This document shows, one piece after another, positions 32,060 to 40,630 of a stretch of DNA of 40,630 nt. Both the position numbers and the translations under genes were made by a program. Under the pieces are notes generated by a model. The model saw only the letters and a program-made list of their open reading frames with translations, was not told the origin of the DNA and did no database searches. Origin of the DNA: a virus; IMG/VR virus record IMGVR_UViG_3300025217_000022, positions 1 to 40,630 of that record. One strand, written 5' to 3'. The first letter of the stretch is position 1. Each line of letters starts with the position of its first letter.

Positions 32060-32863
32060 TCAGCCCTCCAGCGCTTCGGCTATGGCGCGACCGACAGCCA
32101 GGACGGCCGCATCGCGCATGTTCAGATTGGGGTGATCGGCCTTGGCGCGGTTGATATCGTCGCGCCAATCCGTCTGTTCATTGCCGCCCAGCACGGTCGC
32201 GATCATGTCGGCATGCTCCACGCCATGGGTGGCGACGCCAGCCGCGACCCCCGGAAAGATCGTGCCGAAATAGCGCAGCACCTGACCATGGAAGGCAACC
32301 GACGCCGCCAGGAGCGAAGTGCGCAGGATCTTTTCGCCATACTGGCGCACACAATGCTCCAGCCCGCCGATATTGCTCACCTGCCCCGGCTTCCAGACAT
32401 CCGGATTGGATGTCTTCGCAACCGACATGCCGCCATCGTTCAGCGCGCTTTGGATCACGCACGCTTCGGTTTCACCAGCCGCCAACGCCGCCTTGAACAG
32501 ATCCAGCTTGCTGAGCGGCCGCCGCTGCTGATTCAGCGCCACGAACGATGCGGCCTCTTCATGGGCCGATCCGGATGCGATCACGACACACGGCAGGTCG
32601 TAAATGTCGCCACGCACCCGCGCCGCCGCCAGCCGATGCTGGCCGTCGATCACATACAGCACGCCGTCTTCCCGTCGCGCGACATTCAGAGGCTGGCACA
32701 GGCCCCAATCCCATTCCCGCGCGATCCGCTTGACCAGCGATTGGCTCGGCCCGGTGTCGATCGAGCGCTGGTAGCTATCGTCGATCATCAGATCTGCGAT
32801 CGGGCGAAACTCCAGGCTGGGCCGCTGGCCGCGCTGCGGCTGCACTTTTGGCGCGCCGCTCAT
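32060..32863 (-). CDS. ParB/Srx-fold protein (DGQHR type)
   Basis: 267 residues. The N-terminal half has the ParB nuclease-like fold: FRPIADLMIDDSYQRSID, LVKRIAREWDWGLCQPLNVARREDG and VIDGQHRLAAARVRG, where DGQHRLAA is the motif of the DUF6551/DGQHR branch, followed by ASFVALNQQRRPLSKLD. The C-terminal half is helical and unlike the ParB dimer domain. Members of this group are common in phages and mobile DNA; some are nucleases and some bind CTP, so the action here is unknown. It overlaps the larger ParB gene by 4 nt (ATGA), and both are read together. Confidence 0.8.
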   Translation of the reverse strand: MSGAPKVQPQRGQRPSLEFRPIADLMIDDSYQRSIDTGPSQSLVKRIAREWDWGLCQPLNVARREDGVLYVIDGQHRLAAARVRGDIYDLPCVVIASGSAHEEAASFVALNQQRRPLSKLDLFKAALAAGETEACVIQSALNDGGMSVAKTSNPDVWKPGQVSNIGGLEHCVRQYGEKILRTSLLAASVAFHGQVLRYFGTIFPGVAAGVATHGVEHADMIATVLGGNEQTDWRDDINRAKADHPNLNMRDAAVLAVGRAIAEALEG

Positions 32864-34641
32864 TGCACCTCTTCCAATTGGGCAACGGCATTGTCGGTAT
32901 GCGGATCAGCATCAAAGGCATCGATCGTTGCCCAGGTCAGGCTGACAACGCCTGTGCTTTCCAGCAACTCTTCCAGATCGTCATAGAAGCTGCTGTCGTA
33001 ATTGACGTCGTCACCCGCGTCCAACTCGCGCTCATCGCTGTAAGCGCCGCTTTCCCAACGGAAATGCGCGATGCCATCGACAAGAATGACGGCGGGTACC
33101 GGGTCCACCGCCAATATCTCGGCCATGCGCGCGGCCTTGGCCTCGGCGGCGGCGGCATCCGCTTTTTCCTTGGCCTCGCGCTGCGCGACGGCCGCCGCTT
33201 CCTGTCGCTCAAATTCAGCTTCGGCATCCTCGAACGAAACGCGATCGACCTCATCCTGTGTGACGATAATCGACTGCTGCACAGAATAGGCTGGTCCGAT
33301 ATCGTCATATTCAAACATCCGGCCGAGCGGTGGGCGGAGACTGCCCCAGAACCGGCGGCCCGTCACATCGCCATCCTTCATCGCCGTATTGACCTTGTCG
33401 GCCGCCAGGAACAAACGGCATTGCTCGATCGCAGCCGCGCGCCGCTCGGCTTGCCGTTCCTGATCAGACTTCCCCGGTGCTTCCTCGCGGGCAGGAATCA
33501 GTTCGGCCAAGCGGCCGCTCGGCACGAAGAAACCTTCGTCCAGCACCAGCTTGCCTTCATGGTTGACCCCGGCGTAGCCGCAGATGCCGATACCGGCTTC
33601 ATCGGCCTTCGAGCGCAATTCCGGCATGCTTGGCACGTCGGTGCGGTAATAGGGTCGATCGACCTTTTCATAACCTTTCGGCGGCTTCGGCACCTTGCCC
33701 AGCCGCAATCCCGGCACAAGGATGACATCGCTGGTCGCGGGATGATCGCGCTGGGCGTCCTTCAGGATACGCGCCATCTGGAAATCTGCGCGGAACGAAG
33801 CGATAGCTATGACGACGTCGGGGTCGATCAGTTTCCGGCCGCTATAATTGTCCGCGTCACCGAAAAGGTCATCCTCATACCGGCCACCCTTCTCTTCATA
33901 GGCAGCATTGCCCACAAACTTGAACAGCGGATCGCCAGTAGTCATAACAGCATTGATGATGCCAGACCGGATCGACTGGACGCCGTGGCCCCAACTGCCC
34001 TTCTTCTCTTCCGCCGCAAAAACCTTCAGCTGTAGCTTGCAATCCTGCGATAAAGCGTAGGCTTGGGCGGCATCGATCGTCAGCTTGCCCTGCCGCATCG
34101 CGTCCAGAATTTCCGGTGCTAGCGCGGCCAGCCGCAGCCGCTGCTTCACATAGCGTTCGGAAAAACCGAACCGCTTTGCCAGATCGGCGGGCGCCAACAG
34201 ACCCGGCTTCATGAGCGCTTCGAAAGCCAGGAACTCATCGGCAGGGTTCATATCGCGCTTCGCCAGGTTCTCCGAAAGCGACAGGTCGATCGCATCGGTC
34301 GCAGCGCGCAGCAGCACCGGCACCAGGAAATCATGGTCGATGACACCCTGACGATACAGCAGATCCAATGCCTGCAATCGCCGCCCGCCCCCCACGATGT
34401 AGATTGCAGCGGCATCGATATCTGTGTCGCCCCGATACCCGATCAGGTTCTGCAACAGACCGTGCGCGGCGATGTCGTCGGCCAGGCTCTCGACATCGAC
34501 CGCCTTATCGGTGTGCCGAACATTTTCCGGCGCGCGCATCAGGCGACCCAGCGGAATCATGTCGATACCGCTGATTTTCGCAACGACGGCTTCACTATCA
34601 ATCACCGGCGCAACCGGCGCCACTTTCTTCGCTCTGGGCAT
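32860..34641 (-). CDS. ParB/RepB/Spo0J-family protein
   Basis: 593 residues. Residues about 28-130 are the ParB N-terminal domain: IPLGRLMRAPENVRHTDKAVDVESLADDIAAHGLLQNL, then VGGGRRLQALDLL, where GGGRR replaces the usual GERR, and LSENLAKRDMNPADE. A KorB-type helix-turn-helix follows (LLAPADLAKRFGFSERYVKQRLRLAALAPEILDAMRQGKLTIDAAQAYAL). The long C-terminal part has a Glu/Ala-rich coiled coil and an acidic end. No ParA gene is in the window. Similar ParB proteins accompany phage replication genes in sphingomonads. It may mark or organise phage DNA without partition. GAAGGA lies about 7 nt before the ATG. Confidence 0.85.
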   Translation of the reverse strand: MPRAKKVAPVAPVIDSEAVVAKISGIDMIPLGRLMRAPENVRHTDKAVDVESLADDIAAHGLLQNLIGYRGDTDIDAAAIYIVGGGRRLQALDLLYRQGVIDHDFLVPVLLRAATDAIDLSLSENLAKRDMNPADEFLAFEALMKPGLLAPADLAKRFGFSERYVKQRLRLAALAPEILDAMRQGKLTIDAAQAYALSQDCKLQLKVFAAEEKKGSWGHGVQSIRSGIINAVMTTGDPLFKFVGNAAYEEKGGRYEDDLFGDADNYSGRKLIDPDVVIAIASFRADFQMARILKDAQRDHPATSDVILVPGLRLGKVPKPPKGYEKVDRPYYRTDVPSMPELRSKADEAGIGICGYAGVNHEGKLVLDEGFFVPSGRLAELIPAREEAPGKSDQERQAERRAAAIEQCRLFLAADKVNTAMKDGDVTGRRFWGSLRPPLGRMFEYDDIGPAYSVQQSIIVTQDEVDRVSFEDAEAEFERQEAAAVAQREAKEKADAAAAEAKAARMAEILAVDPVPAVILVDGIAHFRWESGAYSDERELDAGDDVNYDSSFYDDLEELLESTGVVSLTWATIDAFDADPHTDNAVAQLEEVQ

Positions 34642-36029: not shown

Positions 36030-36623
36030 TCAGTTGCCCCCGGCGAAACGGTAACGGCTATTCACAACCGGACTTGTTGCCGGTCCGCCGGGGACTATCG
36101 TGCGGTCACCACGACTCACACGAAGGGCTATTTGATGATCACCGCGTTCGCTGACGACCTCATCCCCAGCGTCGTCCGGCACGACGGAAAGATTGGCATT
36201 CTCACTCCGGACCTCACTGAGGGGCACCTGATCAGCACCGCTGCCGCCGTGGAACTCGCCACCAAACTGCTCGCGGCAGTTTCCGATGTGCATGAAGCAC
36301 AGGGTCGCGACATCACTCACCCCGTCGAGGGTATTCGTTTCCAGATCGCCCAGCGGGGAGCCACCTTCGAAGGTCGCCTGACATTCAATGTCAATCGAGT
36401 ACCCTTGTTCGCCAGCCTCACCGAGGAGCAGGTCACCGATCTTGCGGCCGCATTCCTCGCTGCGGATCGCCACATAGAGGCGGGAGGGAAGCGGGCGCGC
36501 TAAAGAAGGCTCCCCACCGAACACCAGTCGGATGCGAGCAGGATCGACCTGCGCACCGGGCGTCGGCTCTGCACAATGCAGAAAACGCACCCCTTCGAGT
36601 TTTTCGAGGACTGGTGTCATCAT
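36030..36623 (-). CDS. Possible early gene after cro (overlaps a frame on the + strand)
   Basis: 197 codons filling the space between cro and the next early gene exactly: ATG at 36623 overlaps the cro stop, a strong GGGGAGG lies 4-7 nt before the two in-tandem ATGs, and the stop is 2 nt before the next ATG. This fits a coupled operon gene. The protein is not recognised and its middle is low in hydrophobic residues and rich in Gly, Glu and Ser (for example QVPLSEVRSENANLS), as antisense frames often are. A competing rightward frame occupies 36135-36503. Only one is likely to be real; the translation signals favour this one slightly. Confidence 0.5.
   Translation of the reverse strand: MMTPVLEKLEGVRFLHCAEPTPGAQVDPARIRLVFGGEPSLARPLPSRLYVAIRSEECGRKIGDLLLGEAGEQGYSIDIECQATFEGGSPLGDLETNTLDGVSDVATLCFMHIGNCREQFGGEFHGGSGADQVPLSEVRSENANLSVVPDDAGDEVVSERGDHQIALRVSRGDRTIVPGGPATSPVVNSRYRFAGGN
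36135..36503 (+). CDS. Alternative gene on the + strand (competes with the leftward frame)
   Basis: 122 residues from ATG 36135 (AAGGG 8 nt upstream). The protein is more natural-looking than the opposite frame: IPSVVRHDGKIGILT, TAAAVELATKLLAAVSDVHEA (amphipathic helix), FEGRLTFNVNRVPLF and LTEEQVTDLAAAFLAADRHIE. Codon position statistics estimated by eye are about equal for both strands. It would need its own promoter between 36028 and 36134, where nothing clear is seen, and it would split the early operon. Hence kept as the alternative. Confidence 0.4.
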   Translation: MITAFADDLIPSVVRHDGKIGILTPDLTEGHLISTAAAVELATKLLAAVSDVHEAQGRDITHPVEGIRFQIAQRGATFEGRLTFNVNRVPLFASLTEEQVTDLAAAFLAADRHIEAGGKRAR

Positions 36624-36850
36624 GCAGCCTCCCCGATCGAGGGGGATTCGGAGGGGGTTTTTCCCGATGACGGTACAGGAGAAATATCGATATTGAGGCG
36701 ATCAGCCATCGCTTGAACGCCCGGCTTCCTCCACTTCGGAATGCGGTCGCCGCTCTTCCAGCTGGAGACGGTGGAAGGTGGGAGGTCGAGTTCGCGAGCG
36801 ACGGCACTAGTGCCGCCCAATGCGTCAATGATGTCAGATGCCGTTTCCAT
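36620..36850 (-). CDS. cro: Cro/YdaS-like repressor
   Basis: 76-residue DNA-binding regulator opposing the CI-like repressor. Visible: SDIIDALGGTSAVARELDLPPSTVSSWKSGDRIPKW, a helix-turn-helix of the YdaS/Cro type, followed by QAMADRLNIDIS and a disordered Ser/Pro-rich tail. The gene is divergent from cI across three operators and heads the leftward early operon. There is no ribosome-binding site before the ATG, and the promoter -10 ends 7 nt before it, so its mRNA is probably leaderless. The 3' end overlaps the next leftward frame. Cro is a role name given by position and fold; its binding to these operators is inferred. Confidence 0.82.
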   Translation of the reverse strand: METASDIIDALGGTSAVARELDLPPSTVSSWKSGDRIPKWRKPGVQAMADRLNIDISPVPSSGKTPSESPSIGEAA

Positions 36851-36856
36851 GGGACT

Positions 36857-36877
36857 GAATTACGATTTCCGTAATTC
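36857..36877. promoter_or_regulatory. Operator O1, perfect palindrome
   Basis: GAATTACG-N5-CGTAATTC. Perfect 8-bp arms around a 5-bp centre (ATTTC). Overlaps the cro promoter, so bound repressor would shut the leftward early operon. Confidence 0.82.
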
Positions 36878-36885
36878 CAATGCAA
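36857..36885 (-). promoter_or_regulatory. Leftward early promoter (cro promoter)
   Basis: TTGCAT, 17 bp, TAATTC on the minus strand, with operator O1 lying between -35 and -10 and covering the -10. Transcription would begin at or within a base or two of the cro ATG. Confidence 0.7.
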
Positions 36886-36890
36886 GTGGG

Positions 36891-36911
36891 AAATTACGAT
36901 GTTCGTTATCG
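36891..36911. promoter_or_regulatory. Operator O2, imperfect
   Basis: AAATTACG-N5-CGTTATCG. Left arm matches O1 except its first base; right arm has changes. Centre is 34 bp from O1. Confidence 0.65.
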
Positions 36912-36916
36912 ACCGC

Positions 36917-36937
36917 GAGTTACGATTTTCGCAATGT
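36917..36937. promoter_or_regulatory. Operator O3, imperfect, next to the repressor start
   Basis: GAGTTACG-N5-CGCAATGT. Lies 6 bp before the likely cI start and 26 bp (centre to centre) from O2, so it is placed to control repressor synthesis. Confidence 0.65.
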
Positions 36938-36943
36938 GCGCGG

Positions 36944-37564
36944 GTGATATCTACTCAAGAATTAATAGCCCAACTGCGATCGCAGCTTTCCGACGGCAAG
37001 TTCACTCAGAAGGCGGTTGCCGAGCATCTGGGCATAGCTCCGGCGCGCGTCACTGAAATGCTGAAAGGTGGCCGACGGATTCAGACGCAAGAAATAGCGC
37101 CTTTGGCGAAATGGCTTGGGATATCCACCGACGCCCAAGTGCTGGCAATTCCTGATGGCGCAAAGCCAGTTAGTTCTATTCCCTTGCTGGGCGAGGTTCC
37201 AGGCGGGCCTTGGCGCGAGGCTGTCCGAGATGTCAGCAGGTACATTCAAGTGGCGCTACCAGGCACGCGTCCTAACGCATATGCGCTGAAGGTTGTCGGC
37301 GACTCAATGGACCGAATTGTTAAGGATGGCGCCGAGATTGTCATAGACCCGGACGATACCGATCTATTTGACAAATGGCTCTACGTCGTTCGCAATCCAG
37401 ATGGCGAGGTCACGTTCAAGCAATATCGGGACGGGCCAGCTCGACTTGTTCCCTGTTCGACAAATCCAGACCATTCTCTAATCTCAGTTACCGACCGTGA
37501 TTACACGATCGTCGGCAGGGTCGTCCTTATTACGATAAGCCCGGATCAAGCCGCTCTAGATTGA
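36944..37564 (+). CDS. CI-like prophage repressor, S24 type
   Basis: 206 residues keeping the lytic genes off. N-terminal helix-turn-helix: FTQKAVAEHLGIAPARVTEMLKGGRRI, residues 20-46. C-terminal S24/LexA domain: GDSM with Ser121 and VTFKQY with Lys159, 38 apart as in LexA (Ser119/Lys156). At the position of the LexA cleavage site, 35 residues before the Ser, the sequence is EVPGGPW, giving Pro86-Gly87 instead of Ala-Gly or Cys-Gly. The GTG at 36944 is chosen because an earlier in-frame ATG (36899) would place O2 and O3 inside the gene; neither has a clear ribosome site. Lower GC than the structural genes. Confidence 0.85.
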   Translation: MISTQELIAQLRSQLSDGKFTQKAVAEHLGIAPARVTEMLKGGRRIQTQEIAPLAKWLGISTDAQVLAIPDGAKPVSSIPLLGEVPGGPWREAVRDVSRYIQVALPGTRPNAYALKVVGDSMDRIVKDGAEIVIDPDDTDLFDKWLYVVRNPDGEVTFKQYRDGPARLVPCSTNPDHSLISVTDRDYTIVGRVVLITISPDQAALD

Positions 37565-37740
37565 ACTTTCTCACGGCGGATCTGTACGTCGCCTGGCACG
37601 GTGACGTAAAAAGCTCCCCATTCGTCGTAGCTGCCTAGACCGTGCGAAATAAGATCGCGACGCATCTTCTGCTTGCAATTCCTCCACGGTCCAACCGCTG
37701 TAGCAAAGCACATTGCCCGATACCAAACGACCTCCTGCAA
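37546..37740 (-). CDS. Small LexA-controlled protein, antirepressor candidate
   Basis: 64 residues from TTG 37740, which has AGGAGG 5 nt upstream; an ATG at 37713 is the alternative. Not recognised. The sequence is compact and natural-looking: VGPWRNCKQKMRRDLISHGLGSYDEWGAFYVTVPGDVQIRREKVQ, with a basic helix followed by a beta pair. The 3' end overlaps that of cI by 19 bp, tail to tail. Its promoter holds a perfect alphaproteobacterial LexA box, so it should be made after DNA damage. By analogy with phage 186 Tum and the Gifsy antirepressors it may inactivate the CI-like protein. Gene reality and function are both inferred. Confidence 0.55.
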   Translation of the reverse strand: MQEVVWYRAMCFATAVGPWRNCKQKMRRDLISHGLGSYDEWGAFYVTVPGDVQIRREKVQSRAA

Positions 37741-37767
37741 GCACGCCTCCTGATTCGTATTGCCCCC

Positions 37768-37797
37768 TATAGAGAACAAAAAACGAACATATATCAA
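37768..37797 (-). promoter_or_regulatory. LexA-regulated promoter
   Basis: Minus strand: TTGATA, 18 bp, TCTATA. The spacer holds the LexA box, and the predicted start is about 20 nt before the TTG start codon with AGGAGG between. Confidence 0.65.
37774..37788 (-). promoter_or_regulatory. LexA box (SOS box), GTTC-N7-GTTC
   Basis: GTTC, seven bases, GTTC on the minus strand: an exact direct repeat, the known LexA-binding motif of Alphaproteobacteria. It sits between -35 and -10 of the small leftward gene. Confidence 0.75.
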
Positions 37798-37841
37798 CCT
37801 GACCGATCTTAAAAACCTGTGGAAAACCAAAGCCAACGCAT

Positions 37842-37862
37842 AAATTACGGAAATCGTATTGA
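37842..37862. promoter_or_regulatory. Operator O4, imperfect
   Basis: AAATTACG-N5-CGTATTGA. Same left arm as O2; centre GAAAT, as in O5. Covers the -35 of the rightward promoter. Confidence 0.68.
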
Positions 37863-37887
37863 CGTTCAATTACGGAAATCGTAATTC
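37859..37887 (+). promoter_or_regulatory. Rightward promoter of the integrase operon
   Basis: TTGACG, 17 bp, TAATTC. Same design and same -10 as the cro promoter, with operator O5 in the spacer and over the -10. A GGGAGG site follows in the leader before the first gene. Confidence 0.75.
37867..37887. promoter_or_regulatory. Operator O5, near-perfect palindrome
   Basis: CAATTACG-N5-CGTAATTC. The reverse complement of O1 apart from one base at the outer end. 25 bp from O4. Confidence 0.8.
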
Positions 37888-37914: not shown

Positions 37915-38373
37915 ATGCTCCAGCTTCGTACTCAATTTCCCCTACCTGGTAGTCTCGCCTTGTTCCAAGGCCTGCACTGGCGCGTGTTCCAGCATGTCGG
38001 CGATCAAGCCGTTATCACCCGCGGCGGCCCGTCGGCCGCATTGACGCGCCGCGCGCCGATCGACGAACTGGTCGATCCGGTCGAGGCCGATCACAATGCC
38101 ATCCTGCCGTCGCAGGACATGAGCGAGGCGACAACCCGCATTGCAATCTTCACCGCGAAGCTGCTGCGCGACGCCAATGAGGTCGCTCTCTATACGCTGG
38201 GCCGCAAGTTGATTGAGCATGCCCAGACCGGCCGCATCCCCCGCTTTACCGACAATAGCCACCTGGTCCGCATCATGCGTCGCTTGGGCTGGCACAAAGA
38301 TGGATGGATCGGCGAAGGCCACGCCCGCAGCCCCCGCTACGTCCGAACTGCCGCCCCGGCCAAGGCAGCCTGA
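37915..38373 (+). CDS. First gene of the rightward operon, unrecognised
   Basis: 152 residues, not recognised. Begins with LQLRTQFPLPGSLALFQGLHWRVFQHVGDQAVITRGG, then acidic stretches and helices: TTRIAIFTAKLLRDANEVALYTLGRKLIEHAQTGRIPRFTDNSHLVRIMRRLGWHKDGW, with a basic tail. Soluble, no membrane segment. Strong GGGAGG 6 nt before the ATG. Under the O4/O5 promoter, so it should be silent in the lysogen and made early in lytic growth or at establishment. It could be an accessory to replication or integration. Confidence 0.72.
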   Translation: MLQLRTQFPLPGSLALFQGLHWRVFQHVGDQAVITRGGPSAALTRRAPIDELVDPVEADHNAILPSQDMSEATTRIAIFTAKLLRDANEVALYTLGRKLIEHAQTGRIPRFTDNSHLVRIMRRLGWHKDGWIGEGHARSPRYVRTAAPAKAA

Positions 38374-39039: not shown

Positions 39040-40630
39040 CCGGTCGATCGCCGACCAGATCGCGCTGTGTCGAGAGCGCGCCACCGCCGAAGGCTGGCAG
39101 ATTATCGACACCTTCACCGATGCAGAAATCAGCGGCGCCGCAGGTATAGGCGAAGATCAGCGCCCCGGAATGAACGCCCTACTCGGCCGTGTCGAACAGG
39201 GTGGCGTCGATCAGGTGCTTGCCGAATCGACCAGCCGTATCGCACGACACCAGGGCGACGGCTTCGCAATCCGTGAACGCCTGTCCTACTATGGCGCGCG
39301 CCTGTTCACCCTTTCCCAGGGCGAGATCGACGAAATCAAGGGCTGGGTGCAGGGCTTCCTCGATTCGCAGGCGCGGAAAGACATCGCTTTCAACGTAAAG
39401 CGCGGCCAACGCGGTACCGTCCGTTCCGGCCGATCGCCCGCTGGCCTTGCCTACGGCTACAAGAAAGCCAACCGCCTCGACGATCGCGGCGACCTGGTGC
39501 GTGGCCTACGCGCGATCGACGCGGACCAGGCAGAGATCGTCCGCCGAATCTTCGGCGAATATGCCTCCCACCGCAGCGCACGCCAGATCGCCGCAGGATT
39601 GAATGCCGAAGGCATACCCGGCCCGACAGGTGGCACATGGCGCAGCTCCACTATTACCGGTGACCGCCAGCGCAAGAATGGCATGCTTCAAAACCGGATA
39701 TACGTCGGCAAGATCGTCCATGAACGGACCAGCAAGGTCGCCGACCCGCGTACCCGCAAGGAACGCATCCGCCCCAATCCTGAAGCCGACTGGATCGAGG
39801 CCGACGCGCCGGATCTTCGCATCATCGATGATGCGACGTGGGACACCGTGCAGCAGCTGCGCAACACCTACAGCACGGTCCGGCCCGAAATGGCCCGCCG
39901 CCCCAAGCGCTTGCTTTCTGGCATTGGCCGGTGCGGCATCTGCGGTGGCGGATGGAACGTGATCGGACGCGACCAATGGGCATGCGGCAAGCATCGGGAC
40001 GGCGGCGGGTGCTCCAACAATCGAACGATCAAGACGCATGTCTATGAACAGAAAGTGCTGGACGGCCTGCGCGACGACATGCTGCATCCGGATGTCGTCT
40101 CGGCCTATGTGCGCGAATATCATGAGAGCCGCCGCCGACGTACCCAAGAGGTTGCGCAACAGCGCGCCAAGCTGGAACGCCGCCACCGCGAAGCCACCAC
40201 GAAAATGGAGCGACTCGTGAACGCGGTTGCCGACGGTGGCGAAGAGTTCGTCGAGATCCGCGCAATCCTGTCGAAAGCAAGGAACGACCGCGACGCCATT
40301 GCGCACCAGCTGGCCGATCTGGAGGCTTGCCCAGTGATCACCCTGCACCCCGGCATCGCAGACGACTATCGCGCCCAGATCGTGGTGCTGACTGAAGCAT
40401 TGAGCGGCAACGGCCACGCCCAACTAGAGGCGATACCCAAGCTTCGCGCGCTGATTGGCAGTGTCACGGTCTATCCCGCTGAAGGTCGGCGTGGCGTCGA
40501 GGTCGAAGCCACCGGCCGTATCGCCAACATGCTGGCTCTCGCCACCGGCCAGGCGCTGAACGCCTCAATGTATGTTAGCGGTGGAGCGGGTAGCGGGGAT
40601 CGAACCCGCATCACAAGCTTGGAAGGCTAG
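38993..40630 (+). CDS. int: Large serine integrase
   Basis: 545 residues, site-specific recombinase that inserts and, with a helper, excises the phage. Resolvase domain 1-150: IIYARYSTDLQNSRSI with catalytic Ser10 and Arg8, then the helix region and DQVLAESTSRIARHQGDG. Recombinase domain about 155-270 (GLAYGYKKANRL, RQIAAGLNAEGIPGPTGGTW, NRIYVGKIVHERTS). Zinc ribbon with CGICGG and later Cys at about residues 320-350, then a coiled coil (about 370-445) and the C-terminal part. ATG at 38993 has AGGA 10 nt upstream. The last 15 codons are the antisense of tRNA-Gly(TCC), so the gene ends in the attachment region. Confidence 0.93.
   Translation: MRTIIYARYSTDLQNSRSIADQIALCRERATAEGWQIIDTFTDAEISGAAGIGEDQRPGMNALLGRVEQGGVDQVLAESTSRIARHQGDGFAIRERLSYYGARLFTLSQGEIDEIKGWVQGFLDSQARKDIAFNVKRGQRGTVRSGRSPAGLAYGYKKANRLDDRGDLVRGLRAIDADQAEIVRRIFGEYASHRSARQIAAGLNAEGIPGPTGGTWRSSTITGDRQRKNGMLQNRIYVGKIVHERTSKVADPRTRKERIRPNPEADWIEADAPDLRIIDDATWDTVQQLRNTYSTVRPEMARRPKRLLSGIGRCGICGGGWNVIGRDQWACGKHRDGGGCSNNRTIKTHVYEQKVLDGLRDDMLHPDVVSAYVREYHESRRRRTQEVAQQRAKLERRHREATTKMERLVNAVADGGEEFVEIRAILSKARNDRDAIAHQLADLEACPVITLHPGIADDYRAQIVVLTEALSGNGHAQLEAIPKLRALIGSVTVYPAEGRRGVEVEATGRIANMLALATGQALNASMYVSGGAGSGDRTRITSLEG
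40582..40630 (-). tRNA. 3' part of tRNA-Gly(TCC), attachment site
   Basis: Read on the minus strand this is the anticodon arm CTAGC-CTTCCAA-GCTTG (anticodon TCC), a four-base variable region, the T-arm GCGGG-TTCGATC-CCCGC, the acceptor strand TACCCGC, T and CCA. Only the 3' half lies in the window; the 5' half should be beyond 40630. One anticodon stem pair (T-T) is mismatched. It marks the right attachment end. No matching copy is visible in positions 1-1466. Confidence 0.72.

Follow-up and report, generated by a model that had tools for sequence, protein, structure and literature searches.

In textbook accounts a single SOS input acts on a prophage: its repressor is self-cleaving or, where the repressor is uncleavable, an antirepressor is made under LexA control. 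The locus described here appears to combine the two, with a gene for a repressor of apparently self-cleaving type meeting, tail to tail, a 64-codon gene that starts behind a LexA-type box. Does a second, SOS-made protein finish off, time or hold back a self-cleaving repressor? The locus lies in the immunity region carried by an IMG/VR virus record (IMGVR_UViG_3300025217_000022), of which the whole analysed stretch of 40,630 nucleotides is called the window; all coordinates refer to it (Table 1). A first-pass annotation had proposed that the small gene, read leftward from a plausible promoter containing the box, encodes an SOS antirepressor on the model of Gifsy and 186.

Table 1. Features of the immunity region in the window
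Feature	Position	Strand	Remarks
Cro-like HTH gene, divergent from cI	36620..36850	(-)	P22_Cro PF14549, 2e-6, just short of the cut-off
Three operator-like palindromes (TTACGATTTCCGTAA type), gap between cro-like gene and cI	36857..36935	.	direct-repeat families D1/D2
CI-like repressor (cI), HTH + S24 peptidase domain	36944..37564	(+)	PF00717, PHROG 4, LexA 3k2z
Predicted scissile dipeptide Gly-Gly in VPGGPWREA	37202..37207	(+)	aligned with EIRAGEKREA of LexA 3k2z
Putative catalytic Ser of S24 (GDSM)	37304..37306	(+)	invariant in 41/41 partner repressors
Putative catalytic Lys of S24 (VTFK)	37418..37420	(+)	invariant in 41/41 partner repressors
Small gene, predicted SOS-controlled, 64 codons, TTG start	37546..37740	(-)	41 distinct IMG/VR loci with homologues
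Ribosome-binding site GGAGG	37746..37750	(-)	five bases 5' of the TTG of the small gene
Putative -10	about 37768-37773	(-)	box occupies the -35/-10 spacer
LexA-type operator GTTCGTTTTTTGTTC	37774..37788	(-)	conserved in homologues
-35-like hexamer TTGATA	37792..37797	(-)	separated from the box by 3 nt
Two operator-like palindromes, just upstream of LexA promoter and divergent gene	37843..37886	.	D3, I1, I5
Rightward gene, 152 residues, divergent from small gene, behind second operator pair	37915..38373	(+)	

A LexA-type box in the promoter of a small gene

The box GTTCGTTTTTTGTTC is the sole exact GTTC-N7-GTTC within the window, where 0.91 such matches are expected by chance, and a single box is not significant by itself. 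What makes it real is its conservation. Of 41 distinct homologues, 35 carry the exact box upstream of the gene and 4 more carry it with a single mismatch, while one of the two members without it (L099, on the same contig as L137) has a box in the opposite orientation. A set of 28 members contains an exact box within the 200 bp upstream of 24, against 0.13 expected. Of the 41 members, 30/36 retain an exact box when the window itself is set aside together with four phages that the promoter pattern had first brought up. A chance box is ruled out by this conservation across homologues. The conserved part is the half-sites, as the spacers differ in 31 of the 35 exact boxes and the bases at positions 5-8 are almost random. 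The box stands reversed at the same distance in four loci, an arrangement that is tolerable for an operator and not for a promoter.

The motif reported for alphaproteobacterial LexA is GTTC-N7-GTTC (PMC8565304; PMC3091678). The present sites share this motif, in either orientation, and a promoter-blocking position. Of the -35-like hexamer, TTGAT occurs at this position, or one base away from it, in roughly half of the homologues that carry a box. The putative -10 is weak when judged by the E. coli consensus, with no sigma-70 match there. LexA control of the small gene is strongly supported by sequence, and LexA would act by binding at the box.

The frame itself is as first described, running leftward from the TTG at 37740 to the stop at 37546, and its 3' end overlaps that of cI by 19 nt. 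GGAGG stands at a similar distance from an ATG, GTG or TTG in most of the homologues. The family signature is YRAxCFGxPxGPWR...RDLI..GLGSYDEWGxFYxTVPG. Values of dN/dS are mostly 0.01-0.3 in the core of the small protein, with synonymous sites near saturation, and purifying selection on the protein is strong. The AlphaFold model of the protein is a confident beta-alpha-beta-beta-beta fold (pLDDT 94). A spurious ORF is ruled out by the dN/dS values together with the confident predicted fold, and the comparisons support a gene that encodes a real, conserved protein. The first-pass annotation had made conservation of both frame and box in relatives a test of its proposal, and both are conserved.

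The small-protein family and its partner repressors

A search with the 64 residues alone yielded two relatives, both with the box and both convergent to a repressor. Alignment-based scans of IMG/VR raised the number of loci to 6, then 29, then 44, and the promoter pattern TTGATNNATGTTCN6TGTTC alone retrieved further members still missing from the protein search results at that stage. The 41 distinct members all come from IMG/VR and are distinct by sequence, close clades included. When 26 members were compared with Pfam, PHROGs and NCBIfam (E<0.05), they showed no match, and so no DinI profile match and no sequence relation to described antirepressors or to the DinI/Tum family. The small protein likewise has no match in PADLOC or to any PDB sequence, and its fold has no meaningful match among PDB folds and the viral folds of BFVD. 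A known family is thus ruled out as its identity by these libraries, sequences and folds; by these comparisons the small protein is a new, previously unnamed and unannotated family. The tblastn queries used gave no homologue in the phages of GenBank or the plasmids of PLSDB, and similarity to plasmids gave no match that would point to a host. Scans of bacterial genome contigs gave no small-gene match with patterns that were too narrow to show chromosomal absence.

The family is probably wider than the members found. Two loci counted as lacking the small gene, L162 and L176, encode, at +246 and +235, respectively, past the repressor stop, a diverged sister protein whose gene also has a LexA-type box. 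The motif of the two sisters is GYVFMxGxxPxGPxRxTxxEAxxDA, in the same place as the small gene, and the loci are the top two matches among unpartnered loci in a relaxed profile search. An AlphaFold model of the sisters, for which the only input was two sequences, has an uninformative pLDDT of 44.

Beside the small gene lies a convergent gene for an S24-type, CI-like repressor in all 41 distinct members, and no member was found away from such a repressor among them. The 3' ends of the two genes range from 4 nt apart to an overlap of 167 nt. Other neighbours of the small gene change between loci, while the linkage to the repressor stays at 41/41. The same association was approached from the repressor side with 80 repressors that have related C-terminal domains, 44 with the small gene and 36 without. 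A box near the repressor 3' end is present in 39/44 partnered loci vs 3/36 unpartnered ones (Fisher p 1e-13), so it is the small gene, rather than the repressor, with which the box is associated; two of the three unpartnered loci that have it are L162 and L176. The strict pairing supports, at the level of sequence, a small gene that belongs to the repressor, and the neighbouring CI-like repressor would presumably be the physical target of the small protein. Co-evolution specific to the repressor C-terminal domain (CTD) was not seen: with the N-terminal domain (NTD) accounted for, the partial correlation between divergence of the small protein and of the CTD is -0.02, that for the NTD being 0.46. 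This speaks against CI as the target, but weakly, as NTD identities are near saturation.

The partner in the window is an S24 CI-like repressor by its HTH, its Ser/Lys dyad and its Peptidase_S24 domain (PF00717, 6e-15, 55 bits vs a cut-off of 23), and it matches the transcriptional repressors of PHROG 4 (1e-28). The predicted scissile dipeptide, Gly-Gly in the window, is Ala-Gly in most relatives, and a rough pattern finds AG in 31/44 partnered repressors. With Ser and Lys kept in every one of the 41, the partner repressors look to be of the self-cleaving type. The analogy to Gifsy and 186 drawn in the first-pass annotation had led to the expectation of a short, non-cleavable repressor, and this expectation fails.

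Possible roles of the small protein in induction

LexA-controlled antirepressors have precedents in Gifsy, 186 and N15 (PMC3121763). Like those for Gifsy GfoA/GftA, 186 Tum and N15 AntC, the present gene is small, belongs to a phage and is directly controlled by LexA, here as predicted from the conserved promoter box, and it would presumably serve induction. In Gifsy, the antirepressor genes are not part of the immunity region, and their targets are repressors that do not undergo cleavage (PMC3121763), whereas the small gene lies inside that region, convergent with an S24 repressor that keeps Ser and Lys. Small proteins that inactivate an autoproteolytic cI without cleavage are also known, such as smORF72 (PMC10432266). 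Like this protein and VP882 Qtip, from linear plasmid-like phages, the small protein is without known homologues and is found in a phage with a cI that is predicted to be autoproteolytic from its S24 domain, Ser/Lys and mostly Ala-Gly. The smORF/Qtip modules, however, do not depend on SOS and are activated by a transcription factor encoded next to them (PMC10432266), whereas the small gene is predicted to be LexA-controlled and is convergent to cI; its site in the window has a LexA-type box, and no activator gene was noted there. A third group joins a small protein to an S24-type repressor in DNA-damage control: DdrR of Acinetobacter strengthens repression by UmuDAb, an S24-type repressor (PMC11332147), and gp7 of GIL01 strengthens repression by LexA (PMC4551915). 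Genetic pairing of this kind is present in 41/41 members here, but ddrR is divergent from umuDAb whereas the small gene is convergent with cI, and searches of the family libraries revealed no sequence relation to either DdrR or gp7.

Taken together, the small protein very probably helps to decide when these prophages wake. The reading preferred, with slightly better than even confidence, is that of an SOS-controlled accessory protein acting on the neighbouring CI, most likely as an antirepressor, and supplying the SOS branch of a lysogeny switch made up of two genes. During lysogeny, LexA of the host, bound to the box between -35 and -10, would silence the small gene, and CI would hold the early operators closed. 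Upon DNA damage, active RecA would promote self-cleavage of the S24-type CI and, through inactivation of LexA, allow the 64-residue protein to be made, which would most likely bind and disable the neighbouring CI, thus removing CI left uncleaved. Induction would then proceed faster or more completely, or be coupled to the SOS threshold. As the small-gene transcript would enter the cI 3' end, with no terminator found, its transcription may also interfere with cI expression. We infer the direction of the effect on CI from the precedents, namely the LexA-controlled Gifsy, Tum and AntC proteins and the action of smORF72 on an autoproteolytic cI. The first-pass proposal is well supported as to a small gene under LexA control that is specific to a CI-like repressor, and the antirepressor function that it named is here a matter of analogy. 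Against this function counts that the partner repressors in all 41 loci keep Ser and Lys, which would make an additional antirepressor made under SOS in part superfluous. If this reading holds, a single repressor receives both SOS inputs in this module, and the second of them must bring a benefit, since both are kept across at least 41 diverse prophages. An unannotated protein family would thereby gain a predicted regulator and a probable target.

Small proteins that strengthen S24-type repressors exist, so the effect could also be opposite in sign: made under SOS, the small protein might stabilise the S24 repressor, by better operator binding or slower self-cleavage, and delay induction until damage is severe, like gp7 and DdrR. 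Known small partners of S24-type repressors act so, one of them being strongly SOS-induced (PMC11332147; PMC4551915), and a brake would not be redundant, since the partner repressors all appear to be of the self-cleaving type. The near-invariant PxGPWR, the most conserved motif of the family, also resembles the cleavage stretch of the repressors, P-A-G-x-W-R, with which it aligns in a profile comparison (E about 0.001). This likeness was spotted by eye before being tested; it is short (14-15 columns, hhalign probability 17-28%), was reached by 0/200 and 1/200 column permutations, and comes with no visible co-variation between the motif and the partner's own cleavage stretch. Given this, and with DdrR and gp7 unrelated to the family in the libraries searched, a corepressor, the main rival to the antirepressor, is considered rather unlikely. 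The motif could also be read as a mimic, in which the PxGPWR loop imitates the cleavage stretch PAG-x-WR, docks at or near the S24 active site or the RecA-facing surface and either speeds or blocks self-proteolysis. The alignment is suggestive only, and such docking is judged unlikely; were it true, a dedicated regulator of S24 autocleavage would be built into the immunity region.

The sequence alone is also compatible with an effect on RecA or on a host protein instead of CI. A modulator resembling DinI, which would tune RecA filaments and so indirectly the cleavage of CI and LexA, fits the small size and LexA control typical of dinI, and in Gifsy phages the LexA box has a dinI homologue next to it (PMC3121763). 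The 26 members compared with Pfam, PHROGs and NCBIfam matched neither DinI nor RecX nor any other family, however, and the strict linkage to the repressor gene differs from what a general RecA modulator would need, which makes this option improbable. Alternatively, the SOS promoter might mainly drive antisense transcription into cI and so lower CI synthesis, the protein being secondary. The ends of the two genes always abut or overlap (+4 to -167 nt), and no terminator-like site was found between the small gene and cI, yet the length of the overlap varies widely, and the purifying selection and confident fold indicate that the protein matters, for which an antisense device would have no need; this is regarded as very unlikely. 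Small SOS-controlled proteins directed at the host are common in bacteria, and one of these (a division block, a toxin, or a helper of lysis or takeover) might sit in the immunity region by chance. This reading is given equally little credence, as the linkage to one repressor type holds throughout while other neighbours change, no toxin or other family match appears in Pfam, PHROGs and NCBIfam, and the tblastn queries run found the gene in neither phage nor plasmid collections.

Layout of the immunity region

The small gene lies in a compact immunity island, in which the order is cro-like gene, three palindromes, cI, small gene, LexA promoter, two palindromes and rightward gene. The cI ORF was listed from an ATG at 36899, but GTG 36944 is more likely its start because that ATG falls inside the operator-like palindromes; the conserved 'MFVIDRELRFSQCAR' stretch (36899-36944) is probably operator DNA read as protein. 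A near copy of a palindrome from the 5' region of the repressor occurs upstream of the LexA promoter in 31/39 homologous loci, vs 0.8% of shuffles. The palindrome sequence itself differs from phage to phage, and the distance between copy and box is often about 24 or 58 bp. The cognate CI may thus influence the small-gene promoter too, with CI and LexA sharing a control region. The rightward gene has no Pfam or PHROG match, and a relative of it occupies the same place in locus L001.

The small-gene promoter is also preceded, at a distance of a few tens of bases, by a DnaA-box-like site (TTWTCCACA; 37816-37826, minus strand), and 10/41 members have such a site there, against 0.12 expected. Farther away, the leftward early operon contains a gene for a ParB-like protein of 593 residues (32860-34641); the phage also encodes a serine recombinase of the integrase type. 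At the far right of the window, 48 bp (40582-40629) without an annotated feature match Rhizobium phages at 94%. The match falls within the 3' end of a large serine recombinase gene, and the 48 bp are possibly an attachment-site core.
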